Positions 629 through 19,728 of a stretch of 64,000 nucleotides of DNA are shown piece after piece. This DNA comes from Sphingomonadales bacterium. GTDB taxonomy: Bacteria; Pseudomonadota; Alphaproteobacteria; Sphingomonadales; Sphingomonadaceae. Position 1 is the first letter of the stretch. Each line of letters starts with the position of its first letter. Location: positions 62,001 through 126,000 of the forward strand of contig JANYGX010000012.1 in assembly GCA_025362295.1 (NCBI GenBank), read 5' to 3'. The notes beneath the pieces are model-generated. The model saw only the letters and a list, made by a program, of their open reading frames with translations. It was not told where the DNA came from and did not search any database. A program made the translations under genes and the position numbers.

Positions 629-1942
629 ATGACTAAATTTTATTTATTTATCCTGCTTATGCTTAACTTTACAACACATTCTGCTCTGGCAGCGCCACTC
701 GACGCAGCCATTGCCAAAGATTACCCGTCGCTGGTCGCCCTGTATAAAACCCTGCACCAGAATCCCGAACTGTCGTTTCATGAAACAGCCACTGCCAAGC
801 GCATGGCGACGGAACTGCGCACGGCGGGCTATACGGTCACCGAACATATTGGTGGCAACGGCGTGGTCGGTGTTATGAAAAACGGTGACGGCCCGGTGCT
901 GCTGATCCGCACAGACATGGATGCGCTGCCGGTTAAAGAGCAAACCGGTTTTGCCTATGCCAGCACTGTCACCACCCTGGATGACACGGGCACTCGTGTG
1001 CCGGTGATGCACGCCTGCGGCCACGACATCCACATGACGGTGTTTACCGGCACAGCGCGGCAACTTGCTGAAATGAAAAGCCAGTGGCACGGCACGCTGG
1101 TGATGATCGGTCAACCGGCAGAAGAGCGCATTGGCGGTGCCACAGCCATGCTTAAAGATGGTCTGTTCACGCGATTTCCAAAGCCGACACATCTGCTTGG
1201 CCTGCATGACAGCAGCGATCTGCCGGCTGGCACTTTGGGTTATACGGTTGGCTACACACTGGCCGCCGCCGACTCGATTGATATTGTCGTGCACGGCATT
1301 GGCAGCCACGGCTCGCGCCCGCAGCTCGGCAAAGACCCTGTGCTGCTTGCGGCCCAAATCATCACCGGCCTGCAAACCATCGTCAGCCGCTCGATCGATC
1401 CGCAGGATCCTGGTGTCATCACTGTGGGGGCCATTCACGGGGGCACCAAGCGCAACATCATTGGCACCAGCGTGACGCTCGAACTGACCGTGCGCAGCTA
1501 TACGGATAAAACCCGCAAGGCCCTCATCGATGGTATCAAACGCATCGCTGATGGCAATGCCATGGCCGCAGGACTGCCACCAGAACTCTACCCGACGATC
1601 ACTGTGGTCGATGCGTTTGCGCCGGCAACCTTTAACACCGCAAAGCAAACCGAGGCCGTCGCCACGATCTTCAAGCAACATTTTGGTGACACTCGCGTGC
1701 AAGCCATGCAAGCCATAATGGGCAGTGAAGATTTTTCCGAATATTGGCAGGCGGACAAAACTGCTGAAAGCACCTTTTTCTGGCTCGGCTCAGCCGAGCC
1801 AAACGCCTACGCTGCTGCAAAGGCAAAAGGTGTGAGCTTGCCCACCATGCACTCGCCATTCTTTGCACCCGACCCTGAACCAACAATCAAGACCGGGGTG
1901 GAGGCGATGACTATGGCAGCACTAGGGATATTGAAGAAATAA
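629..1942 (+). CDS. Secreted M20 family amidohydrolase/peptidase
   Basis: Predicted metal-dependent amidohydrolase of the M20D (HipO/carboxypeptidase Ss1-like) group, probably periplasmic. The ATG at 629 is preferred over an in-frame TTG at 611 because GGAGAAG sits 5 bases before it, and it gives a clean signal peptide (MTKFYLFILLMLNF, cleavage near ALA-AP). Metal-site motifs are RTDMDALP (about residues 94-101), HACGHD (128-133), the EE pair of GQPAEE (165-166) and MGSEDF near the C-terminus. Length about 437 aa is normal for the family. It stands alone between ahcY and the convergent S53 peptidase and ends at a shared terminator. The substrate is not predictable; N-acyl amino acids or peptides are likely. 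Confidence 0.88.
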   Translation: MTKFYLFILLMLNFTTHSALAAPLDAAIAKDYPSLVALYKTLHQNPELSFHETATAKRMATELRTAGYTVTEHIGGNGVVGVMKNGDGPVLLIRTDMDALPVKEQTGFAYASTVTTLDDTGTRVPVMHACGHDIHMTVFTGTARQLAEMKSQWHGTLVMIGQPAEERIGGATAMLKDGLFTRFPKPTHLLGLHDSSDLPAGTLGYTVGYTLAAADSIDIVVHGIGSHGSRPQLGKDPVLLAAQIITGLQTIVSRSIDPQDPGVITVGAIHGGTKRNIIGTSVTLELTVRSYTDKTRKALIDGIKRIADGNAMAAGLPPELYPTITVVDAFAPATFNTAKQTEAVATIFKQHFGDTRVQAMQAIMGSEDFSEYWQADKTAESTFFWLGSAEPNAYAAAKAKGVSLPTMHSPFFAPDPEPTIKTGVEAMTMAALGILKK

Positions 1943-2017
1943 TCACGCTCGTTCCGGCATGACCACCGATTATATCGCGAGTCAGTTAAAACGACCTCTG
2001 CTATTAAAACAGCATTA

Positions 2018-2048
2018 AAAAAAAGGCAGGATTTCTCCTGCCTTTTTT
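2018..2048. terminator. Bidirectional intrinsic terminator
   Basis: AAAAAGGCAGGA, loop TTTC, TCCTGCCTTTTT: a perfect stem flanked by an A-run on one side and a T-run on the other. It therefore works for both the M20 gene (plus) and the S53 peptidase gene (minus), which converge here. Confidence 0.85.
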
Positions 2049-2067
2049 ATATCAGAGCGTGTGGGTA

Positions 2068-3912
2068 TTAGGGATTGCTTGGGGATTGCGGGTCACCAGC
2101 CGGCCCAATTTTATTCATATTGAACAGCGCACGAATGTCGGGTGAGCCGTTACCATAAATATAGTTATATTTTTTAGGAAAGTCGGTGCCGTAAACACCA
2201 TCGAAACCCGGGTTGTTGCGATGATAAGGCTGTATGGCTGGTTGCGGACCCGTCGCTGTATTTTGCGCTTTGGCTTGTGTGTAAAGGAAGGTGTTGACGT
2301 TTCCAAGACGGCCGCCTTGGTATTGCACCAGCAGGGCCAGTGCGCCGACAAATTCAGGTGAGGCAACCGACGTGCCAATCACACCAGCGCGCGAGCCGTT
2401 ATCCCAGATGATATCAAAACCATCATCGAGGGTGCAGGATGATGCAATACCTGGGCAACCACCCACAAACATGCCAACATCAGGCAGTGTGCGCATTTTT
2501 GAATTGGTCGTGACCAGTTTTTGATAGTCCGGTCGTTTGAAAATGGTGCTGATGCCACCGCCTGCACCCCAGTAACCACCAGAAATCGGGTTGGTGCCAA
2601 ACGGGCTGTATGGGATCAGCGGATTACCAAAGGCACTTTCACGCACATATTTTGATTTGAGCGTGCCTGGCACAAATTGTGTGATCAGGTTGCCACCGCC
2701 TACAGATGTCACGTGCGGGCTGTGCGCCGGAAAGGAAACACCGGGAATCCATGTTGGTGCCGCATTTGGATCGCTTGAGAAAGCATCAGCGCTTGGGCAT
2801 TGCAAGCCACCGTTGTCGCCTGAACTTGCAACAAAGGTGATGCCTTGGGCATTGCCTTGGGCAAATATGCTATCATAAACCCTAAGCAAACCAGTTTGAT
2901 CAACACCATTGTTATAGTCTGCGGTGAAAAACAACTCGCAAGCACCGAAGGATGAATTCACCAGGTCAAACGTATTGTTGGAAACAATAGTGTAATATCC
3001 ATCAAGAATGTTTGCAAACGAAAGGTTTGGAACATTGACCAAAGTGACATTTGCACCGGGCGCGCCACTGATCACTTGCTGCACATCCAGTGAGGCTTCA
3101 AAAGACAGGTTAGGGTCAAAAGGCGCACCACCGTTGATCAGCAAGCGGTTGATGGTTGGCACGGGTTTGCCGGTGTTGGTTGTGAAGTTTTCATGATCAA
3201 ACATTGCCTGAACATCTGTATCGAGAATGTCATTTGATATCAGAATGGCAACGTTCGACCCTGTCCCGTCAAGCTTCTTGCCTTTTACCTTGGCAGTATA
3301 GGAAGGATAATCGTACGCTTGTTTCAGATCATTGTAATAATAACCGCGATTGATGCCACGACGACTGTCCGCAATGACGCCGTTGGTTTTGACGGCCATT
3401 GGTTTGGCTGCATGCATGTTGGCAAAATCAGCAATGACAACTTTTTCGCTTTCCAGCGCCGGTGACATGGCAAGTTTCGACATGGCGACCATGCTGGCCT
3501 TGCCAGTGGCCGATGATTTAACGCCAAGGCGTGTGCCCAGTAGTTTTTCAATCTTCGCAACCGAGCCTGAAACCGTGATGGAGCGACTGCGCATGGCTTT
3601 GACGTTAAGGCCAGCAGCCTTCAGGCTATCGTGCACTCTGGCCATTGATGCCTGTGTCGGGCCAAAGCGTGTGCCAAAGTCAGCCGGTGTCAGCCATTTA
3701 TGATAGTTGGCTGAACCCGGTGTCTGTTGGTCGGATAGCAGGGCTTCAAGACCCGCTTCATTGCGCAGCGGCAAAAAAAGCTCAAACTGAACAGTGGCGG
3801 CCGCATTGGCCTTTGCCAGTGTCTCAACTGCATCAGCGGCTTGCGCTGGTGCAGCAACAGCCAAAACGCAAGCCGTTGTCAATAAAGTTGAACATAAAAC
3901 AGATTTAATCAT
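2068..3912 (-). CDS. Secreted S53 family (sedolisin/kumamolisin-like) peptidase
   Basis: Serine-carboxyl endopeptidase precursor, expected to be exported and to mature by removal of its propeptide. The ATG at 3912 follows GAGGA with a 5-base gap, so it is preferred over the GTG at 3924. The signal peptide is MIKSVLCSTLLTTACVLAV ending near AQA. A pro-kumamolisin domain covers roughly residues 40-180 (HKWLTPADFGTRFGP is typical). The catalytic Glu and Asp are in SFEASLDVQQ, and the nucleophile Ser is in the conserved GTSVASPEF. Length about 614 aa fits a prepro-S53 enzyme without large extra domains. It shares a terminator with the M20 hydrolase, so both may serve extracellular peptide use; that link is inference. 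Confidence 0.88.
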   Translation of the reverse strand: MIKSVLCSTLLTTACVLAVAAPAQAADAVETLAKANAAATVQFELFLPLRNEAGLEALLSDQQTPGSANYHKWLTPADFGTRFGPTQASMARVHDSLKAAGLNVKAMRSRSITVSGSVAKIEKLLGTRLGVKSSATGKASMVAMSKLAMSPALESEKVVIADFANMHAAKPMAVKTNGVIADSRRGINRGYYYNDLKQAYDYPSYTAKVKGKKLDGTGSNVAILISNDILDTDVQAMFDHENFTTNTGKPVPTINRLLINGGAPFDPNLSFEASLDVQQVISGAPGANVTLVNVPNLSFANILDGYYTIVSNNTFDLVNSSFGACELFFTADYNNGVDQTGLLRVYDSIFAQGNAQGITFVASSGDNGGLQCPSADAFSSDPNAAPTWIPGVSFPAHSPHVTSVGGGNLITQFVPGTLKSKYVRESAFGNPLIPYSPFGTNPISGGYWGAGGGISTIFKRPDYQKLVTTNSKMRTLPDVGMFVGGCPGIASSCTLDDGFDIIWDNGSRAGVIGTSVASPEFVGALALLVQYQGGRLGNVNTFLYTQAKAQNTATGPQPAIQPYHRNNPGFDGVYGTDFPKKYNYIYGNGSPDIRALFNMNKIGPAGDPQSPSNP

Positions 3913-4057
3913 GATAGTCCTCACTTGAACGTGTTAAACTGCATGCAAATGAACATAAGATGCGTAACGATGCAAATTATTTTATTAAATTTTTAAGTTA
4001 CGAAGAATTTTAGGGACAAAGAAACATGTTGCGGCGCAATATAAATTGGGCGTTCAT

Positions 4058-4158
4058 CGTTATCCCCAACGCTTGATCGGGGAACTTGGGCAATAAGGTC
4101 TCGGTGGCGGCAGTGTTCACTAGAGCTTAGAGATCTCGCACCAGAAGCGGGGATGACG
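4058..4158. repeat. Palindromic intergenic repeat-like unit
   Basis: The ends CGTTATCCCC (4058-4067) and GGGGATGACG (4149-4158) are inverted copies with one mismatch. The inner sequence includes GCTTGATCGGGGA next to the left end and AGAGATCTCG near 4130-4139. This resembles the dispersed GTCATCCCCG-type palindromic repeats common in alphaproteobacterial intergenic DNA. Only one copy is seen in this window, so its repetitive nature is inferred. Confidence 0.45.
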
Positions 4159-4203
4159 ACCATCAACGCATTCACTATAGCTCTTTGTTATCGTTCGCCT
4201 TGT

Positions 4204-4232
4204 CCCGATAAAATGAAGCTCATTTTATCGGG
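4204..4232. repeat. Perfect 13-bp inverted repeat
   Basis: CCCGATAAAATGA, loop AGC, TCATTTTATCGGG. There is no T-run on either side, so it is not a standard intrinsic terminator. It could be a protein-binding palindrome or part of the neighbouring repeat cluster. Confidence 0.6.
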
Positions 4233-4252
4233 GGCTCGCTATATATTATGCC

Positions 4253-4321
4253 AAAAAATTGGCCTGAAAATCTTATCTGTCGCAGGCGGACCAACGCCTT
4301 TAGCAGAGAGATTTTCAGGCC
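4253..4321 (-). terminator. Long hairpin with U-tract behind dnaA
   Basis: GGCCTGAAAATCT (4261-4273) pairs perfectly with AGATTTTCAGGCC (4309-4321). The 35-base loop contains a further AGGCG/CGCCT stem. Read on the minus strand, the hairpin is followed by AATTTTTTGG (4251-4260), so it can act as the dnaA terminator. The long branched loop is unusual for a plain terminator. Confidence 0.55.
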
Positions 4322-4367
4322 GGTCCATGGAAAACTTTGGGAGGTCCCCAGGACTGTTCGTAAAATT

Positions 4368-6002
4368 TTAGCTGTCGAGCTGGCGGCTGAGGGCGGTGAT
4401 ACTGGTTTCCATTTCATTGTCTGTCAGACGCAAAGATTCGATTCGCTTGATCGCGTGCATCACGGTTGTGTGATCGCGGCCACCAAATTTGCGCCCGATC
4501 TCTGGCAGTGAGCGCGGTGTCAAACGTTTGGCCAGATACATGGCAATCTGGCGCGGCCGCGCCACTTCGCGCGAGCGCCGAGCCGAGAGCAAATCCGCCA
4601 GTCGTATTTTATAGAAGTCAGCCACCTTGCGCTGTATTTCGTCTATGGTGATGCGGCGATCGTTGGCCCGAATGAGATCCTGCAGAGCACTGCGGGCAAA
4701 TTCCAGATCGACCGGACGCCCCGTGAGGGTTGCGTGCGCCACCACACGGTTGAGCGCGCCTTCCAGTTCCCGAATGTTGGAGGACACACGGCGGGCCAGA
4801 AACTCCAGCACGTCCGAGGGCACATGGGCATTGGCCATGGTTTCCAGTTTGGACTGTAAAATGCCAAGCCGAAGCTCAAAATCAGTCGGGTGAATGTCCG
4901 CAACCAACCCCCAGCCGAGGCGGGAACGAATGCGCTCCTCGATGCCTTCGAGGTCAGATGGCGAGCGGTCCGCCGAGATGATCAGCTGGCGACGATAATC
5001 GATCAGCGCGTTGAAGGTGTGAAAAAACTCCTCCTGCGTTGAGTTCTTGCCTGCAATAAATTGTACATCATCAATCATCAGCACATCGACATTGCGGAAG
5101 CGCTGTTTGAAGGCCACTGTATCCTGATGGCGGAGGGCAGACACAAACTCGACCATGAATTTTTCAGCCGATAAATAGACCACCTGTCGTTCCGGATGCT
5201 GACGGCGGATTTCCCAAGCAATGGCGTGCATCAGATGGGTTTTGCCAAGCCCGACACTTGAATGCAGAAACAAGGGATTGAAAGCCACAGTGCCGCCTTC
5301 CGCAACGCGCTGAGCGGCCGAAAACGCAAACTGGTTCGAGGCACCCACCACAAAGCGATCGAAAGTATAGCGCGGGTCCAGTGGCGATCCTAGAGCCGCC
5401 GACGTGTTGCCATTAACAGCGCTTCCAGCCGCAGCATTCTGGGTCGCGGCCGTGCTCGTGGCGCCATTTGATGGCGTCACCATAGGCGTGGCCAAATTGT
5501 GTTGTGCAGGCGGGGCCAGTGTGCTTGCAGCAACAACCAGACGAACAGATGTTATACAATCCGTCTTGGCGGCCCACAGGCTGCGCAGTCGCTCGGCAAA
5601 ATGGCTGGCCACCCAATCCCGCATAAAACCATTGGGGAGTGCTAGCAGCACCTCGTTACCGGAAGCGCTGACAAACGTGAGGGGCTTCAGCCAGCTTTCA
5701 AATGTCCGCACACCAAATTCCGCACGCAAGTGATCTCGTATGGCTGCCCAGGCGTCTGCAATCCCTGTTTCAGCTTCTGTGCCACTCTTAACAGTTTTGT
5801 CGGTTGTGTCAGGCTGCAACAAAAGAGCGCCCGCTACAGCGGCAACAGCCATAGGACTGGTAGTCGCAGGAATCATATCAATGGGCGATGTCATCTGCCG
5901 GGCTTTGCCAGAGTTGAAACTATCGCTGTTGAAACTATCGCTGGAGGTATGAAAGCCACGGATACGGCTGTTATCTTCATTGCCATCACTCTCTCTCATC
6001 AT
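4368..6002 (-). CDS. dnaA: Chromosomal replication initiator protein DnaA
   Basis: Binds DnaA boxes and melts the replication origin. Domain I starts near residue 84 (AWAAIRDHLRAEFG, ESWLKPL). A long Ala/Thr/Asn-rich linker follows (about 155-205). The AAA+ domain has Walker A HSSVGLGKTH (248-257) and Walker B VLMIDDVQF (307-315). Domain IV ends with the DnaA signature GRDHTTVMHAI. Two adjacent ATGs (6002, 5999) follow GGGGA; 5999 has the better spacing. The 544 aa exceed the usual 450-500 because of a roughly 80-residue N-terminal extension of low complexity. A start at 5894 would remove part of it but lacks a visible ribosome binding site. No cluster of DnaA boxes is seen nearby, so this locus is not evidently the origin. 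Confidence 0.96.
   Translation of the reverse strand: MMRESDGNEDNSRIRGFHTSSDSFNSDSFNSGKARQMTSPIDMIPATTSPMAVAAVAGALLLQPDTTDKTVKSGTEAETGIADAWAAIRDHLRAEFGVRTFESWLKPLTFVSASGNEVLLALPNGFMRDWVASHFAERLRSLWAAKTDCITSVRLVVAASTLAPPAQHNLATPMVTPSNGATSTAATQNAAAGSAVNGNTSAALGSPLDPRYTFDRFVVGASNQFAFSAAQRVAEGGTVAFNPLFLHSSVGLGKTHLMHAIAWEIRRQHPERQVVYLSAEKFMVEFVSALRHQDTVAFKQRFRNVDVLMIDDVQFIAGKNSTQEEFFHTFNALIDYRRQLIISADRSPSDLEGIEERIRSRLGWGLVADIHPTDFELRLGILQSKLETMANAHVPSDVLEFLARRVSSNIRELEGALNRVVAHATLTGRPVDLEFARSALQDLIRANDRRITIDEIQRKVADFYKIRLADLLSARRSREVARPRQIAMYLAKRLTPRSLPEIGRKFGGRDHTTVMHAIKRIESLRLTDNEMETSITALSRQLDS
5913..5942. repeat. 15-bp perfect tandem duplication in dnaA 5' end
   Basis: GTTGAAACTATCGCT occurs twice in direct succession (5913-5927, 5928-5942). 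It encodes the repeated pentapeptide SDSFN in the N-terminal extension of DnaA and preserves the frame. Confidence 0.9.
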
Positions 6003-6409
6003 TTCCCCACGTCGCCCCCAAGCGCCTTATTGAATTATAGAATATTGATAAAACTGGAAAATTTTACCGGTATACGCCACATCGTTTTCAATATTTGAAG
6101 GCCGCGCCAATTCTGCACTGCGGATGCAAACATCCGTCTTACACACTGAAGCTTTCAAGAATCGATTATTTGTGACAGTTTGAAGAGTGTATCGAACTCA
6201 AAAACGAACGCAAGCGCAGAAACGTTCAGTTACTTTAAATAAATAGATTGACAAGGCAAACCCGAGCAATCCTCAACACTTAATCTAACCAATTGATATT
6301 TATGCATTATTTTTAAAACGTAAGAGTCGGCGAGTCGGCCGCTCATATGATTGAATTTCAATGGCTTTGATAAAAGTTTTAAGCATGCTGATGAACACAA
6401 AATGAATAA
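6003..6409. other. 407-base intergenic region between dnaA and the amidase gene
   Basis: AT-rich, no supported gene. It should hold the dnaA promoter (minus strand). Visible structure is a small hairpin CGGATG-CAAA-CATCCG at 6121-6136 and an 8-bp tandem repeat GAGTCGGC at 6324-6339. No DnaA-box cluster was found. Confidence 0.6.
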
Positions 6410-7843
6410 TTAATTGGCAGCGACTCGACGCTCAAAAAAATGTTCAACAGCCCGCGCCACCCCGCGACCAATGATTTTCTGCCCATCTTCTGAAAACAAA
6501 AATTTCGAATCAAGCGCGTTGGACATATAGCCGGTTTCCAGCAGAATGGATGGCACATCGGGGGCCTTCAATACAATAAATCCGGCAAAACGATGAAAAT
6601 TCGATCGAAAATAGAGAGATTTACTCACCTCACGCACAGCCGTCTGGGCAAATTCCGAAGAGTAATTCATCGTTTCATGCTGGGCGAGATCAATCAGGAT
6701 ATTGGTCACATCCGGGCTTTCTCCACCAAGATTGATGCCTGAAATAATGTCGGCCTTGTTTTCCTTAGCGGCCAGTTTTTCGGCCTCTTTGTCTGAGGCT
6801 CTGGTAGACAGGGTGTAAACCGTGGCACCGCGGATTGCGGGGTCTACGATCGAATCGGCATGGATCGAGATAAACAGATCAGCGCCCAGCTTGCGGGCGA
6901 TTTCGACACGGCCGGTGAGCGGTATGAACACATCGGTCGAGCGTGTCAGCATGGCTTTGGCTTTGCCGCCTTCATCAATTTCAGCCTTGATGGCGCGCGC
7001 GATTGCCAGCGTCACTTCCTTTTCCTTGCGACCGGCCAGCACGCTGGGTGCACCTGGGTCTTGGCCGCCGTGTCCCGCATCAATCACCACAATCGGCAAA
7101 CGACCGCGAATTTTAGCCGAAAGCGGTGGTTTTTCAACAGCCACCGGAATTTGCTCCGGTGGCAAAAGAGGCACGTTCGATGTTGGCAAGCTGGCAATAA
7201 CCACTGGTTTTGTAAGGGGAGTTTGCGAGAGTGGCGGCTGTGTTGAGGTTGTTTTGACAGCCGGTTTTTGCGCTGCCGGTTTTACAGGCGCGCCTGATTC
7301 AATCACCGGGCCAGACGGGGTGCCGAAATTCGCACCAACTTCTGTTGTATCGTCCGCATCAGCTGGTTTCAGATGCGCTGCCGTGGTCGCCCCCGGCACT
7401 GTGGTTTTGCCACGCTTCATGGTTTGGGCATATACGGCGGTATCTGCGGCCTTGAGAGTAATGATCAGCCGGGGCTTGCCGGTGTTGTCCGCAGCATCAA
7501 ATGTGCGCGTGCCTGAGACAATGGCGGCATCACTGATATCCATCACAACACGTGTTGAACCCGGTTTTGGCTGGCCCAACCGGATGGCGTTGACGAGGCC
7601 AGCAACCGAAATTGAAGCTTTCTGGCTGTTGCTGACGCCTGGTATGTCGAGCACCCAGCGTTTTGGGGCATCAAGTGCAAACAATTGAGGCCGGTCGAAC
7701 GGGCCATCAAAATCCAGTGTGATCAGCGTTTCGCCAACGCTCGCCTTTTCCTCCACACGAATATCGGTGATATGGGCCGCTAGGGCGGGTAACCCGACCA
7801 GAGCGGCTAGCAACACGATTGTAACGCTGAGATAACGAACCAT
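6410..7843 (-). CDS. N-acetylmuramoyl-L-alanine amidase (AmiC type)
   Basis: Periplasmic zinc amidase that cuts the amide bond between MurNAc and the stem peptide during daughter-cell separation. The signal peptide is MVRYLSVTIVLLAALVG with cleavage near ALA-AH. An AMIN domain (about 25-130) for septal targeting is followed by a Pro/Thr-rich linker and an Amidase_3 catalytic domain (about 250-475). Zinc and catalytic residues are in VIDAGHGG (His about 258), KEKEVTLA (Glu), SIHADS (His) and LLETGYMSN (Glu). Length 477 aa is normal. It is divergent from rne across a 455-base gap. In many alphaproteobacteria penicillin-binding protein mrcA follows; here dnaA does. Confidence 0.92.
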   Translation of the reverse strand: MVRYLSVTIVLLAALVGLPALAAHITDIRVEEKASVGETLITLDFDGPFDRPQLFALDAPKRWVLDIPGVSNSQKASISVAGLVNAIRLGQPKPGSTRVVMDISDAAIVSGTRTFDAADNTGKPRLIITLKAADTAVYAQTMKRGKTTVPGATTAAHLKPADADDTTEVGANFGTPSGPVIESGAPVKPAAQKPAVKTTSTQPPLSQTPLTKPVVIASLPTSNVPLLPPEQIPVAVEKPPLSAKIRGRLPIVVIDAGHGGQDPGAPSVLAGRKEKEVTLAIARAIKAEIDEGGKAKAMLTRSTDVFIPLTGRVEIARKLGADLFISIHADSIVDPAIRGATVYTLSTRASDKEAEKLAAKENKADIISGINLGGESPDVTNILIDLAQHETMNYSSEFAQTAVREVSKSLYFRSNFHRFAGFIVLKAPDVPSILLETGYMSNALDSKFLFSEDGQKIIGRGVARAVEHFFERRVAAN

Positions 7844-13544: not shown

Positions 13545-13608
13545 ACGCAGTTGCCTTGCCAATGGAGCCTGAATATGTGGCAGGCGGATATTTTTAATAA
13601 TCGCGTGG

Positions 13609-16600
13609 TCATTTGGCCGCCACGTTTGTGCCGCCCAATGTATTCACCTTGCTTAGGATTGACAGTGTTTTGGTAAGATCGACTTCCAGTGGTGTCGATG
13701 TGTACCCGCGACCGTCGGTGGTCACGTCGACATAAACCCGGTCACTAACATATTTGCCGCCAGAAATTGCCGTGCCTAATGTTGCGTTTCCAGCGCTGTT
13801 TTTCTCGTCAAAGGCAACGATACCAAACTTGTCTATGCGCAGCAGTTTTTTGGTCTTGCCCAGAATATTGAAGTTTCTCACACCACCCTGGCTCACTTGC
13901 GCAAGCGCGCTGGCAAGCTGCACCGCTTCAAGCGGTGATAGTGTTTCAATCGATGATCCAAACAGGATGAGAGACAGGATTTCATCCTGTGGCAACGACG
14001 GCGTTGATGAAAAGCTGATTTGCGGCAGCTGTGCCGTGCCAGCAATGTTAATCAGCGCCTCAAGAGTGTCTTTGGTTGCTCTGTTGGTCACACTCGAACT
14101 TGCCGAGAGTGACAATACAGGGTTGAGTGTATCCTGGCCCTGAAAATTCACTGTCCCCCGATCGACCAAAAATCGCCTGCCGGCAAAATCATACGTACCG
14201 CGAATAAGATGCAGGCGACCGCTGATGGACGGTTTGATGGCATTGCCCCGAACAGTCAGGTCACCACCCCATTCTGAATTGAGTCCTAGTCCTTCAACGA
14301 ACACTTTCTGCGGCGCTGTCATGTTGAGAGCAAGTTCAAATGGTCGTGCAATTCTGTATTTGATAACGGGTTGAGCGCGATTGCCGTTGGCGCCAGCCGT
14401 GCCGTATCGGCTGCTGCGATTGCGTTCTCTCAACTGCAACTCCGGAATGGATTCGCCCCCCGACTGTCCAGCCTTGACCCGCATGCGGTTGATCACCAGC
14501 GGGCCGGAAATTTTGCCGCCATCAGCATCATAGCTTGCCAGCAGCGGGCCGGTTACGGCGAGTTCCAGATCCTCGCGCTTTATCACAGTTGCGTGATCAA
14601 GCGCTATATTGATCGATGCCGGAAAGTTTTTCGCAGCAGACACATCAATATTGCCACCTGCCGTAAAGCTGCCGCCGCCAGACAATTTGCCAGATGCACC
14701 GCTGATGGCAAGCTTTGATCCCTTGAAGCGCCCATCAACGGAGAGGCTAGTCGCGATCAAACCCAGTTCAATGCTTTCGTAGCGGCCATTGGTCATGCGG
14801 AGCGTGCCGTCTAGATACGGATTATCCAATTTACCAGCAAGAGTTGTACTGAGTGCCAGAGGTCCACGTATGTCGTGAGCATCAAGACCGGTTAAACCCC
14901 ACAAAGTGTCTGCGGGTCCGGTGTATGTCAAGCGGCCGGCAAGTGCGCCTGATACAAGGTTGCCACCTCGGTCTCGTGCCACTGTAAAACGCGCGTCTCC
15001 GGATGGTTGACGGTTGACCAGTGCGCTGACAGTGCCCGTGAGGCCGCGATCTCTGAGCGCCAGCACAGTATTGATGTCGAGGGGTTGCGATGACTGGAAC
15101 AAACCTGCCCGGCGCACACGTTTTAAAGCGATTGTTGCATCACCGGCTTTGAGTTTGCTGCCAGCCAACACCAGGTGCGCGTTGCCCGTTGCTGTGCCTG
15201 TCAGGTTGAGATTGGGTGAGACAATATCGAGAAACGTCAAGGGCGTTTCGCCAAGGGTTAGCTGTGCATCAACGCTTTCCCCCACCTTGCGACCGGTTGC
15301 AATAATTGAACCGGTTGCAACGTTGATTTTTGTGGGCCGCAATTGCCATGCATTTCTGTCTTTTTGCAAAACCAGCGGGTTGGCCATTTGTACAGGTTGA
15401 TGTGCCAAAGTGCCATCGAGGGTAGCCGAGAGTGCCAGCAGTTCGGTTTGTGAACCGCGCGTGACAATAATGCCATGACCATCAAAAGGGCTGGCGTTGG
15501 AGCCACGTGCCGTATAATTGAAACTTGCGTTACGCATGGAACCACCGCCAGCCACACTAATCTGGTCGAAATGCGTGTTGCCGATATCTATACCACTGCC
15601 ATTGCTCTGAAGTTTAAGAGTAGGCTCACCCCCCAAAAAACCAGAGCCTATTAGCGTCGCCGCATCAATACTGATATCCTTGCCTCGGAATGTTCTTTCA
15701 AGATTTTTACCCGTCAGATTAAAATTATACGCTTGGCGATTTTGTTCAGGAAAAAGTTTTGCAACAATATTAAGCGCGCCTGATTGATCGCCGGTGGGTT
15801 TGAGTACAACAGACAAATCAGCTTGCCATAACTTTCCCGCCAGCAATGTGCTTTTGCCATCAACTTCAGCTGTGCCTATCCGTCCGGTTATGTTTTCAAA
15901 ACTTGGATTAATGCCCGTGCGCGCATTGGCCGCCAGATTTACTGGGCCAAATTCGCTGTCGCCCTTTAAAACAACGTGCCAGCGCTGCGTATCAATCGGG
16001 GCCAGCTGCGCCGTGACTTTGCTTGCTGTAAAGCCGGCCACATTGAGTTCAGGTGCTGACACATCTGCCGTAATACGGGGTTGCTTGATGGTGCCTTCAA
16101 TGCGAAATATAACCGGCAAAGGTTTGGTCGTTGTAATAGGCGTATCAGGGGCGAGCGCCTTTAAGTTTTTTATCGTGCCAACCAAAGAGGCACTGATCGC
16201 ATTGCCGCGCAGCGATCCTGATCCGGTAAAGTCACCACTGCTGCCAACAAGAGCCAGTTTTTGCGATGACAGGCTGCCATCCTGCCCCAGTTGAATAATG
16301 CCACGAAGTTGCGGCTGATCACCAAGAAACCGTATAACTTCTGCCGGTGCGTGCCAGTTTTTTGTTGTGGCACTTGCTGTGATGTCGCTGATCAGAGCGG
16401 CCGTTCTGCTATCACGCTTTACCGTTCCACGGACGACAACAGGCATATCCCCGAACGTGCCAGTCGCAAGTGGCAGGTTTGCCTGTTGCACAACGGCGGT
16501 TAACTTGCCCGTGTTCTGATTGAGGTTGATCAAGCCGGTCATGCTTGCAAGGTGGCTTTTTACGTCGAGTCCACTGAGTGTTATGTCGCCACCGCTTTGC

Positions 16601-17952
16601 AGGAATTGTCCCTTGGCATTCACGTCTGTCAAATAGCGTGCCAGTGCCACATCGCCTGTTGTGATTGCAGCGGACTTGAAAGTAACATTCAAAGGTTTCT
16701 GCCCTTCCGAATGGTCCAGAGGTTTTCCGGCCACATTTAAACTTACTTTACTGGCTTCAGTTTTGTTTTGCTTGAAGTTGTTTGCTGTAATTTGCAGGTT
16801 CATGTCAGGGTTGCGCAACAAGCCTTCGAGTGATGCTGTGGCGTGCACATTCTTAGCCAACAAACCGGGTTCAAATATGGATAGCAAATGCCCGTCAGCA
16901 TCACTGGTTTTAACAGCCGTGTTGTGCAAACTGGATTTTTCAAGATCAACAGTGGCATTTGCAGAAATATTCATGCCTGCGCCAACAAGCGTCAAAGACG
17001 TTTGCACATTCGGGCGATTGATGGACACCGAGCCAGAGACGTTGGGTGTTTGCATGATGATTTTTTGCACCAGAACAGGCAATGTTACATTTGCCGCCAA
17101 AGTGCCTTTGGCAAATATGACGCCGCTGGTTGCATGCAGTGCAAGATTTGCAAGTGGTGCCGCGGCAATCGAGGCGTTCAAATTGCCATGCCAGTTGGCA
17201 AAACTGCCTTTGCCGGAAATATCAAGATCAAGCCCGGGTTGCCATCTTAGCAAGGCAGCAAGGGCGCCGTTGGCTGGCGCATCAACGCGGGCCTGAATAT
17301 CAAAAATGTCTTTATCCGGCGCTGCGTGAATTTTTATAAAGGCCCGGTCCGGTGCGTCTAGGGCTGTCAGGTCAAGATTGGTTATCAACGCCTGATCGCG
17401 CAGGACGGCATTGCCCTTTGCCGCCAGTGTGAAGGTACGACTGGAAACACCAGGCTCAACCACCAACCTGTCCACGCGCAGGTTGGCAATATTGATGTCG
17501 CCTTTGGGCAGCAAAGGATCGTGCGGATCGCTGGGATAAAAATGCGGTTGTCGCAGCCACCGTGCTGACCATATGTGAAGATCACTGATATCAATTTTTC
17601 GACGCAGCAGGGCCGCTGGTTGCCATATCAAGTCGCCTGCATCTATAACAGCAAAGGTGCCATCCAGATCACGCAATTGAACAGCTTCCATTTGTGATGA
17701 GTCAAACAGGGAGCCGGAAATTTTACCGACCTTGATAGAAAATCCACTTTTGCTAACGCGTCCTGCCAGTCGGTTGGTAACCCAGCGCTGGCCATTCGAA
17801 CTGTCTAGCCACAAGATGCCAGCAAATGCCAGTAACAAAACAGCCGATATAATAGCTGGAATGAGAAAGGCTTTGCGAGGCCGCTTTGGCAGCTGCCAGT
17901 TGAAATCGTCACCGGCAGTCTCTTGGGAGGGATGGTCTGCACGCATGGTCAT
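13609..17952 (-). CDS. tamB: TamB, inner-membrane-anchored lipid/protein transport component
   Basis: AsmA-like bridge protein spanning the periplasm, linked to outer-membrane protein assembly or phospholipid transport. One N-terminal membrane helix (about residues 30-50, AFLIPAIISAVLLLAFAGIL) is followed by more than 1000 residues of repetitive beta-rich sequence. The C-terminal DUF490/TamB domain includes GTYDFAGRRFLVDRGTVNFQ, PQISFSSTPSLPQDEILSLI and LFGSS. The protein ends in a short beta-type tail. Its 1447 aa and intact frame argue for a working gene. The partner gene tamA, normally directly upstream, is present only as a remnant at 17991-18095. Confidence 0.93.
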   Translation of the reverse strand: MTMRADHPSQETAGDDFNWQLPKRPRKAFLIPAIISAVLLLAFAGILWLDSSNGQRWVTNRLAGRVSKSGFSIKVGKISGSLFDSSQMEAVQLRDLDGTFAVIDAGDLIWQPAALLRRKIDISDLHIWSARWLRQPHFYPSDPHDPLLPKGDINIANLRVDRLVVEPGVSSRTFTLAAKGNAVLRDQALITNLDLTALDAPDRAFIKIHAAPDKDIFDIQARVDAPANGALAALLRWQPGLDLDISGKGSFANWHGNLNASIAAAPLANLALHATSGVIFAKGTLAANVTLPVLVQKIIMQTPNVSGSVSINRPNVQTSLTLVGAGMNISANATVDLEKSSLHNTAVKTSDADGHLLSIFEPGLLAKNVHATASLEGLLRNPDMNLQITANNFKQNKTEASKVSLNVAGKPLDHSEGQKPLNVTFKSAAITTGDVALARYLTDVNAKGQFLQSGGDITLSGLDVKSHLASMTGLINLNQNTGKLTAVVQQANLPLATGTFGDMPVVVRGTVKRDSRTAALISDITASATTKNWHAPAEVIRFLGDQPQLRGIIQLGQDGSLSSQKLALVGSSGDFTGSGSLRGNAISASLVGTIKNLKALAPDTPITTTKPLPVIFRIEGTIKQPRITADVSAPELNVAGFTASKVTAQLAPIDTQRWHVVLKGDSEFGPVNLAANARTGINPSFENITGRIGTAEVDGKSTLLAGKLWQADLSVVLKPTGDQSGALNIVAKLFPEQNRQAYNFNLTGKNLERTFRGKDISIDAATLIGSGFLGGEPTLKLQSNGSGIDIGNTHFDQISVAGGGSMRNASFNYTARGSNASPFDGHGIIVTRGSQTELLALSATLDGTLAHQPVQMANPLVLQKDRNAWQLRPTKINVATGSIIATGRKVGESVDAQLTLGETPLTFLDIVSPNLNLTGTATGNAHLVLAGSKLKAGDATIALKRVRRAGLFQSSQPLDINTVLALRDRGLTGTVSALVNRQPSGDARFTVARDRGGNLVSGALAGRLTYTGPADTLWGLTGLDAHDIRGPLALSTTLAGKLDNPYLDGTLRMTNGRYESIELGLIATSLSVDGRFKGSKLAISGASGKLSGGGSFTAGGNIDVSAAKNFPASINIALDHATVIKREDLELAVTGPLLASYDADGGKISGPLVINRMRVKAGQSGGESIPELQLRERNRSSRYGTAGANGNRAQPVIKYRIARPFELALNMTAPQKVFVEGLGLNSEWGGDLTVRGNAIKPSISGRLHLIRGTYDFAGRRFLVDRGTVNFQGQDTLNPVLSLSASSSVTNRATKDTLEALINIAGTAQLPQISFSSTPSLPQDEILSLILFGSSIETLSPLEAVQLASALAQVSQGGVRNFNILGKTKKLLRIDKFGIVAFDEKNSAGNATLGTAISGGKYVSDRVYVDVTTDGRGYTSTPLEVDLTKTLSILSKVNTLGGTNVAAK

Positions 17953-17990: not shown

Positions 17991-18095
17991 TTAAAAACTT
18001 TGTCCAACGGAAACATAAATCTGTAGAGGTGCTTCCCGTAATGGTTGTCCCGCTGCCGAAACGAAGCGTCGACGGTTGACAGGTGTTGCAATATT
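17991..18095 (-). pseudogene. tamA: Remnant of tamA (last 34 codons)
   Basis: Just upstream of tamB the minus strand reads NIATPVNRRRF, then APLQIYVSVGQSF and stop. This matches the end of TamA/BamA-type outer-membrane barrels, whose last strand runs D-x-A-x-P-x-N-R and ends (Q)IYxSxGQ(A/S)F with terminal Phe. Position and strand are those expected for tamA. Upstream of this point no barrel or POTRA sequence can be read in any minus frame. An ORF of 96 codons includes it, but its first two thirds do not look like a protein. I read this as a deletion remnant; the homology is by eye. Confidence 0.6.
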
Positions 18096-18412
18096 TTGGG
18101 ATAAATTGCGCCTGAGATGACGGCGACCGTCAACGTGGCTGTGCTCAACAGCGAACAGGCAAAATTTTTTCTGAACATCCGTGTTCTTTAGGCATCGGAC
18201 ACTCTGCACGAAGGGAATGCGCTTATTGCTTTCAATCGGTAACATGTGCGGGTGCTGCTGCGCAGGTGAACCTCGCACCAAAAAATCAGTGAAGTAATCA
18301 ATCTCGCGGCAGGTTTTGCGCTATGGTTCTGCTTATGCCCTATGGTTTGCATCCGCCAAGTTTATGGCCTCAAGACGGCAAGGGAAAGCCAATTGTCAAC
18401 CGTCCGTCCTAT
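18096..18412. other. Region without a supported gene upstream of the tamA remnant
   Basis: About 317 bases. Short ORFs exist on both strands, but none has a convincing start or a protein-like composition. A 63-codon ORF (17987-18178, minus) has a hydrophobic start but shares DNA with the tamA tail in another frame and is probably spurious. The sequence is likely junction DNA left after loss of tamA. Confidence 0.5.
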
Positions 18413-18748
18413 TTAGTGAATTGTTCCAAGCACATCTTCGAGCAAGAGCAATTGTATGGCGACCTCAACACGGCGCCAGTAGCCAAACTGATCGGTATTG
18501 GCGCGGCCCATGGCCTCTTCCGCGAGTGCTGAAGCTGTCAGAATGGCATCATCGCCTTCAAGTCGCAAAAGCTCTTTTGCGCACAAGAATGCGACACGAT
18601 CCGCAATAACTGGAAGAACTGTGGCTGTGGTTTGATTGTACTCAAGCATGATGCGCCTCGCTGGGTTGATCTCTCTGTCAACCACATCGCAAGCCTTGAG
18701 CCATTTATTAATCTGTTTAAAAACAATAGCTTGAAAACTTAGAGCCAT
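18413..18748 (-). CDS. Small protein of unknown function
   Basis: About 111 aa from the ATG at 18748 (MALSFQAIVFKQINKWLKAC), or 140 aa from an upstream start at 18835. The C-terminal part, ALAEEAMGRANTDQFGYWRR followed by VEVAIQLLLLE, looks like the small alphaproteobacterial proteins that carry an A-x-x-A ... D-x-x-x-Y-W-x-x-V-x-x-A-I pattern. Neither start has a good ribosome binding site. There is no signal peptide or membrane helix. No function is assigned. Confidence 0.5.
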   Translation of the reverse strand: MALSFQAIVFKQINKWLKACDVVDREINPARRIMLEYNQTTATVLPVIADRVAFLCAKELLRLEGDDAILTASALAEEAMGRANTDQFGYWRRVEVAIQLLLLEDVLGTIH

Positions 18749-18844
18749 GCCATTGTTAGCATATTGATACACACTTGTCCCGTTTTGAGACGTTTGAAAC
18801 CTCTCACAATCGTGATATATCTTTTTGATAAACAAGGAACACTT

Positions 18845-19006
18845 ATGAGAACATCAATCGCGGGCGGCGTATTTCTGCCAATCAGCATATTGTTGGGTGG
18901 CCTTGCTGGCAGCCGCTTTGGGAATGTCAGCATTGGCGTCTTATCAGGCGTTGCAGCCGGACTTGTTTTAGCTGGTTTGTTTAGCCTCTGGAACAAAAAT
19001 AGGTAA
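18845..19006 (+). CDS. Small two-helix membrane protein
   Basis: 53 aa: MRTSIAGGVFLPISILLGGL, then a charged/Gly turn, then a second hydrophobic helix (SIGVLSGVAAGLVLAGLFSL) and the tail WNKNR. AAGGA lies 6 bases before the ATG, a textbook ribosome binding site, which strongly favours 18845 over the in-frame upstream start at 18764. The Gly-rich helices suggest a small inner-membrane hairpin protein. The family is not recognised. Confidence 0.65.
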   Translation: MRTSIAGGVFLPISILLGGLAGSRFGNVSIGVLSGVAAGLVLAGLFSLWNKNR

Positions 19007-19020
19007 AAACCTTTACAGCC

Positions 19021-19728
19021 CTAAATTTGTCGGCCCATCCAGACCACCCGACCGATGATGTGGATGGTTTCAGGGTCGCAATCAACCCAGCTGGCATAGG
19101 CCGGATTATCACTGGCTATGGTAATCTGATGCCGTGACGGGTGCATGGACAGGCGTTTCACCAGCAGTGCCTCTTCAGCTCGCAGCACATAAATGCCATC
19201 ACGCAAGCGCTCCGTGTCGGCTGTATCAATCAGAATGTGATCGCCATTGGCCAATGTCGGCAACATGGAATCGCCTTCGACCTGAATGACCGACAACGCA
19301 GCAATGCCGCCGGATGAAATGGCCCGTGCCCAGCTTGACTGAAATGCCAGTGCGGTCTCGTCGGGCATGTCATCGGGGAGGGTGCCACTGCCAGCCGAGG
19401 CGCGCACGTCATAGCGCGGTATCAGCACATAATCAGCATCATTATGATATGTAGCAACGGATTTATCGTGACCCTTCATGCGCCGTGCCTGGCTGATGCG
19501 ACCCGTAGGCGCGCCGAGTTCCAACTCACTCACCTGCAAGCGCTCGGCCAGCAAGCGCCGGTCGTCCTCGCCCAGTTTCCGAGGAATTCCGCGCTTGATG
19601 TATTGCTGAATATAGGCAGCGTTGCGCCCGAGCAACTTTGACAGCGATGCATAATCTTCATCGCGCTCCCGAATCAACTCATCGAGCCTTGCCCTGACGG
19701 TCACATCCTGTTTTGAACCTTGTGTCAC
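19021..19728 (-). CDS. S24-family (LexA/CI-like) self-cleaving transcriptional repressor
   Basis: Phage-type repressor. The N-terminal part (about 1-70) has a helix-turn-helix region (YASLSKLLGRNAAYIQQYIK). The S24 peptidase domain (about 105-235) has catalytic Ser154 in EGDSMLPTL and Lys191 in ALLVKRLS. An Ala-Gly pair (112-113, RASAGSG) sits at the position where such repressors cut themselves. It ends IIGRVVWMGRQI, as in many alphaproteobacterial chromosomal homologues. It is divergent from a small DNA-binding-like gene at 19872, with about 140 AT-rich bases between, the likely operator. It may respond to DNA damage via RecA; that is family knowledge, not seen here. Confidence 0.88.
   Translation of the reverse strand: MTQGSKQDVTVRARLDELIRERDEDYASLSKLLGRNAAYIQQYIKRGIPRKLGEDDRRLLAERLQVSELELGAPTGRISQARRMKGHDKSVATYHNDADYVLIPRYDVRASAGSGTLPDDMPDETALAFQSSWARAISSGGIAALSVIQVEGDSMLPTLANGDHILIDTADTERLRDGIYVLRAEEALLVKRLSMHPSRHQITIASDNPAYASWVDCDPETIHIIGRVVWMGRQI

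Follow-up and report, generated by a model that had tools for sequence, protein, structure and literature searches.

The tamA slot and its remnant

The window, i.e., the whole 64-kb stretch of DNA analysed here (G000:C15:62001-126000), is part of a 2.59-Mb draft genome of 37 contigs (completeness 100, contamination 0) and holds, within a 154-kb contig, a tamB gene preceded by a short remnant of tamA (Table 1). The remnant, translated as NIATPVNRRRFVSAAGQPLREAPLQIYVSVGQSF and terminated by a stop codon, lies on the tamB strand 38 nt before this gene. Against a profile built from the last 45 residues of TamA in 19 of 20 relatives' tamAB loci (one gave none), it ranks top among the 2775 stop-to-stop segments of the window (12.8 bits, E 0.016; second-best segment 8.9). 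The alignment spans IATPVNRRR...LQIYVSVGQSF, the turn being extended by 9 inserted residues, and includes the TamA hallmark of a last barrel strand ending in F. Judged by score alone, the identification would be weak: composition shuffling of the window, repeated 30 times, gave 106,756 segments, of which 2, each from a different shuffle, equalled this score. The remnant is nevertheless taken as a TamA end because of its position, i.e., strand, stop and distance to tamB, and because of the synteny of the tamA slot, and on the same grounds a chance match was rejected despite the weak score. An origin from the BamA gene of this genome was likewise rejected, as the end of that protein reads ...FQFNVGTSF, unlike the remnant. 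The first-pass annotation had read these 34 codons as the end of a TamA/BamA-type barrel and had seen no POTRA or barrel sequence upstream. In agreement with the latter, the full-length TamA profile finds its best window match in the same remnant and nothing convincing upstream of it in the window, neither POTRA domains nor a 16-stranded barrel.

Table 1. Features of the tamAB site (window positions) and the YhdP-like gene of the same genome.
Feature	Position	Strand	Evidence
tamB, 1447 codons, open	13609..17952	-	PF04357 E 1.4e-57, alignment to 20 relatives
tamB stop TGA inside conserved last strand	13609-13611	-	alignment to 20 relatives
Untranslated remainder of the TamB end (P-R-D-Y codons and TAA)	13594..13608	-	in frame past TGA
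tamA remnant, last TamA barrel strand and stop codon, 34 codons	17991..18095	-	profile of 19 TamA C-termini, synteny
Candidate leftover tamA start (MFRKNFACSLLSTATLTVAVISGA)	18096..18178	-	ATG at 18178, signal-peptide-like; tentative
orf140, small uncharacterised family, directly before tamA in sphingomonads	18413..18835	-	profile E 7.9e-13
Small membrane-protein-like frame between orf140 and S24 gene	18764-19006	+	reading frame
S24 peptidase-domain regulator-like gene, upstream neighbour common to relatives	19021..19728	-	PF00717 E 1.6e-16
YhdP-like gene	L182 (G000:C29) 1620-4631	+	YhdP-like open frame

In the relatives' loci L061 and L080, a short gene is located directly before tamA. A profile of the orf140 family, obtained in a second-round build from relatives' sequences only, detects members in 35 of 101 relatives' loci (a set including the same genome twice in places, e.g., L061 and L101). 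Each of them adjoins tamA, at -40 to 94 nt from the TamA open frame in the 33 loci in which this distance was measured, whereas the remaining two, L061 and L080, were inspected individually. In the window, the sole match of this profile is orf140. Homologues of the S24 gene were found upstream of tamA in L062, L067 and L080 among 20 loci and also in L088. Since orf140 and the S24 gene are thus neighbours at the tamA site of relatives, the window holds the tamA slot, and orf140 and the remnant are separated by 317 nt where relatives carry a whole tamA. A deletion of tamA in place is, on these sequence comparisons, well supported.

The orf140 product belongs to an uncharacterised family, shows no Pfam match and has a longer N-terminus than the L061 and L080 copies, and no NCBIfam match was obtained for the small frame on the opposite strand between orf140 and the S24 gene. 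The stretch beginning with the ATG at 18178 is signal-peptide-like and out of frame with the remnant; among 5000 composition shuffles, its home-made signal-peptide score was attained by 0.36% when the start had to be ATG and by 1.0% when any start was allowed. It is too short for any TamA sequence match, and we tentatively regard it as the old tamA start.

The clipped end of TamB

Compared with 20 relatives, the 1447-aa TamB is terminated five codons early by a TGA inside the conserved last strand. Its end reads ...GGTNVAAK, followed by TGA and then, in frame, by codons for P-R-D-Y and TAA, in register with the ends of relatives (e.g., ...RWSKDY). Scanning named genomes (labels Sphingomonadaceae, Sphingomonadales, Sphingomonas and similar) with a single sequence did not retrieve a relative, whereas 80 TamBs were taken from the scan with an alignment query. 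All 80 carry a [KR]DY end, although this set leans towards complete ends, as a single full-length query gave 562 matches, of which the 80 best were used. The final Y is also found in 32 of 32 distinct TamB ends of a second set of relatives. Across its 1447 codons, tamB contains no other stop, the only lesion being situated in the last 5 of 1452 codons. The PF04357 match covers profile positions 4-368 of 381 and does not reach the profile end; the C-terminal (DUF490) domain is present, with its conserved last C-terminal strand incomplete. Consequently, the earlier description of tamB as intact and full length is correct for the otherwise open 1447 aa but does not extend to the last five residues, which are lost to the early TGA.

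For E. coli, PMC12800296 describes the last TamB strand, residues 1251-1259, as forming nine hydrogen bonds to TamA beta1. From the shared place at the extreme C-terminus we infer that the residues cut here are the counterpart of that strand, and the five lost residues would probably plug into TamA. A PDB search returned E. coli TamB (9xdc, 23sp, 5vtg), with the matched stretch ending before the tail, and in both of two single-chain models of the TamB end the tail has a pLDDT below 50.

Trees of TamB and BamA, each calculated from seven family members and four outgroups, agree in placing this genome outside the other six family members. Its TamB distance to the outgroups, 2.90, is the smallest of the seven (others 3.04-3.40), and its BamA distance of 1.10 is the second smallest (range 1.09-1.39, G012 partial). 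With this smallest outgroup distance and no acceleration of TamB, the data give no hint of prolonged relaxed selection, and the assumption of a TamB decaying for long was rejected for showing no acceleration relative to BamA. A search of 397 family genomes, this one counted among them, yielded no close relative; the next-best TamBs were 31-32% identical.

Omp85 and AsmA-like proteins in the genome and its relatives

In the whole genome, PF01103 has one match, an 880-aa frame taken as BamA, and a search with the TamA alignment at E ≤ 10 yielded three stretches, all within this frame. Hence, the genome-wide search for TamA/Omp85 proposed in the first-pass annotation retrieved BamA only, and a second such protein was not found in the assembly with either query, which speaks against the idea that tamA might have moved elsewhere. 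PF04357 likewise detects one TamB in the genome, and TamA and TamB, the two components of a TAM complex, are not both encoded.

For comparison, 58 relatives, 34 from the same family and 24 from the same order, were examined together with this genome. Of these 58, 42 have a PF04357 match and all 42 possess TamA, i.e., TamB without TamA was encountered in 0 of 42. In 41 of the 42, one or more tamB copies are immediately preceded by an Omp85 match, the exception being G036, where contig ends truncate both genes. In the named set (best 80 of 562 matches), TamA is upstream of TamB in 73 of 80 loci, and the other seven loci begin inside TamB or less than 300 nt from the TamB open frame. Many family members have two tamAB pairs, this genome a single, broken one; two TamB matches were seen in G001, G005, G009, G011, G012, G017, G024, G027, G029, G032, G034 and others. 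A reverse case within the family is found at L184 (G033:C1:2795000-2803000), where at about 3212-7086 on the minus strand a TamA frame of 826 aa is followed by an N-terminal TamB part only. The latter matches residues 28-541 of the L061 frame, PF04357 is absent in G033, and the neighbouring frames appear transposase-like by eye.

Besides TamB, the genome carries a YdbH-like open frame of 999 aa and a YhdP-like one of 1003 aa, while AsmA (PF05170) was not found in it. At E ≤ 1e-10, a YhdP match was obtained for 22 of the 24 order relatives but for none of the 34 family relatives; when 11 family relatives were searched at E ≤ 0.001, one weak match (G008), below the cut-off, was obtained. The 34 family relatives include 31 with TamB, the 24 order relatives 11. 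PF04357 is absent in 13 of the 24 order genomes outside the family, and YhdP is present in 11 of these 13. The other two, G042 and G052, gave no YhdP match at E ≤ 1e-10 (G042 misses only just), and the family member G025 is also without TamB and without YhdP, indicating that YhdP is not the sole route to TAM loss. The corresponding comparison of YhdP with TAM loss (31/3 versus 11/11, Fisher p 0.001) is post hoc and, by following the family boundaries, confounded by them. For the autotransporter domain, one genome match of 21.8 bits is below the 26-bit cut-off, and a lack of clients is, therefore, a possible cause of TAM loss.

Interpretation and relation to known systems

Taken as a whole, the locus looks like a TAM caught in the act of loss or rewiring. 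We consider it fairly probable, for this one genome, that the TAM is being lost and that YhdP and YdbH cover for it. An internal deletion of about 1.9 kb, a size estimated from relatives' TamA of about 650 aa, would have taken tamA between its start and the last barrel strand, leaving an out-of-frame stub and a TamB without outer-membrane partner. A stop codon, acquired before or after this deletion, would have removed the latter half of the TamB strand that inserts into the Omp85 barrel. The loss would be recent, which would explain why the remaining tamB is still open, and it may be tolerated because the YhdP-like and YdbH-like proteins are kept, two other AsmA-like lipid bridges that are redundant with TamB in E. 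coli. The order and age of these events, the loss of function and the buffering are what we infer from the features described above. Loss of the TAM is favoured by the stub and its synteny with BamA as the only Omp85 found, by the presence of TamA in all 42 TamB-bearing relatives, by an early stop that hits an end kept in 80 of 80 (best of 562) and 32 of 32 relatives, and by the YhdP-like and YdbH-like genes together with TAM loss being common in the order outside the family. According to PMC8593681, an E. coli tamA deletion resembles a tamB deletion and TamB supplied on a plasmid is of no help without TamA; P. aeruginosa agrees, with TamB described as having no measurable effect when TamA is missing (PMC10900882). 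What counts against loss of the TAM is a tamB open over 1447 codons and showing no acceleration, and G042, G052 and G025, in which TamB is missing and YhdP was not found either at E ≤ 1e-10, speak against a simple YhdP rule. The first-pass annotation had proposed that TamB was kept without its partner at this locus, which fits the tamA remnant and a nearly full-length, not fast-evolving TamB but overlooks that tamB is not intact. Loss of the whole TAM, with the YhdP-like and YdbH-like proteins as backups, is a reading absent from that annotation.

The open tamB, not accelerated relative to BamA, would also suit a TamB that is retained and acts in the absence of TamA and of strand pairing to any Omp85, its docking strand decaying for want of a barrel and its lipid-carrying groove remaining under selection. 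The sole lesion seen, in the last 5 of 1452 codons, affects the place of strand pairing with TamA in E. coli, TamB without TamA is reported to be common outside Proteobacteria (PMC4494059), and TamB is described as functional in Deinococcus, which is without tamA (PMC5382914). However, the lesion site is a biased clue, as an end lesion is the only kind visible in a locus picked for its whole-looking tamB, two backups (YhdP-like and YdbH-like) exist, and the accounts from E. coli and P. aeruginosa mentioned above (PMC8593681, PMC10900882) give no measurable TamB effect without TamA. Such independent action of TamB appears rather unlikely to us. Pairing of TamB with BamA, as proposed for Borrelia, is very improbable. 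There, TamB is reported to bind the POTRA domains of BamA, and in the model presented its C-terminal strands complete the BamA barrel (PMC13382580). BamA is indeed the sole Omp85 found in this genome, but a cursory look at it revealed nothing unusual, and the proposed docking needs the strands at the TamB C-terminus, of which the final one is truncated in this genome; for a TamB without the last five strand residues, the usual strand pairing with BamA is less likely. An intact tamA and/or an intact tamB end might, with low probability, be missing from the draft due to an assembly or sequencing artefact, since the assembly consists of 37 contigs. Against this stand its completeness of 100 and contamination of 0, the position of the site within a 154-kb contig, two independent kinds of lesion and the finding of no other TamA sequence in the assembly.

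With the TAM (TamA-TamB) of Proteobacteria, the locus shares the TamB family, the tamA remnant and the neighbour genes of the sphingomonad tamAB site, but the TamA barrel and POTRA domains are gone and TamB is without its last five residues. As in Borrelia, which has TamB and BamA but no TamA, TamB occurs here with BamA as the only Omp85 found, and Deinococcus is also without tamA. In both of these, however, the absence of tamA is ancient, whereas the loss here is presumably recent and the last TamB strand is cut; among four Borrelia species, the C-terminal TamB strands are reported to be fully conserved (PMC13382580). E. coli tamA deletion mutants are similar in having TamB without TamA and YhdP and YdbH as backups, but here the loss is natural and accompanied by an added TamB lesion. 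TamB without TamA is already known from many phyla (PMC4494059) and has been studied in Borrelia (PMC13382580), while neither a stub of tamA nor a clipped TamB was found described for a sphingomonad in the titles and abstract openings of the literature matches listed, which is not proof of novelty.

On the action of TamB without TamA or another Omp85, the evidence points both ways: the genetics of two model species say no, while many phyla carry TamB without TamA. Of the readings compatible with the data, a TamB working independently is the most interesting, and the position of the lesion in the docking strand favours it, although its chance of being correct is small. TamB might then, though this is doubtful, be a working lipid bridge minus its Omp85 plug, in which after tamA loss only the docking strand became dispensable and the groove is still selected. 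If true, transport by TamB would be separable from Omp85 docking in a proteobacterium. If the TAM is simply decaying, the locus would be a snapshot of the module's disappearance. With a presumably recent tamA loss, an open tamB, a lost docking strand and both YhdP and YdbH, this genome may serve as a natural test of the dependence of TamB on TamA and likewise of the redundancy among AsmA-like lipid bridges.
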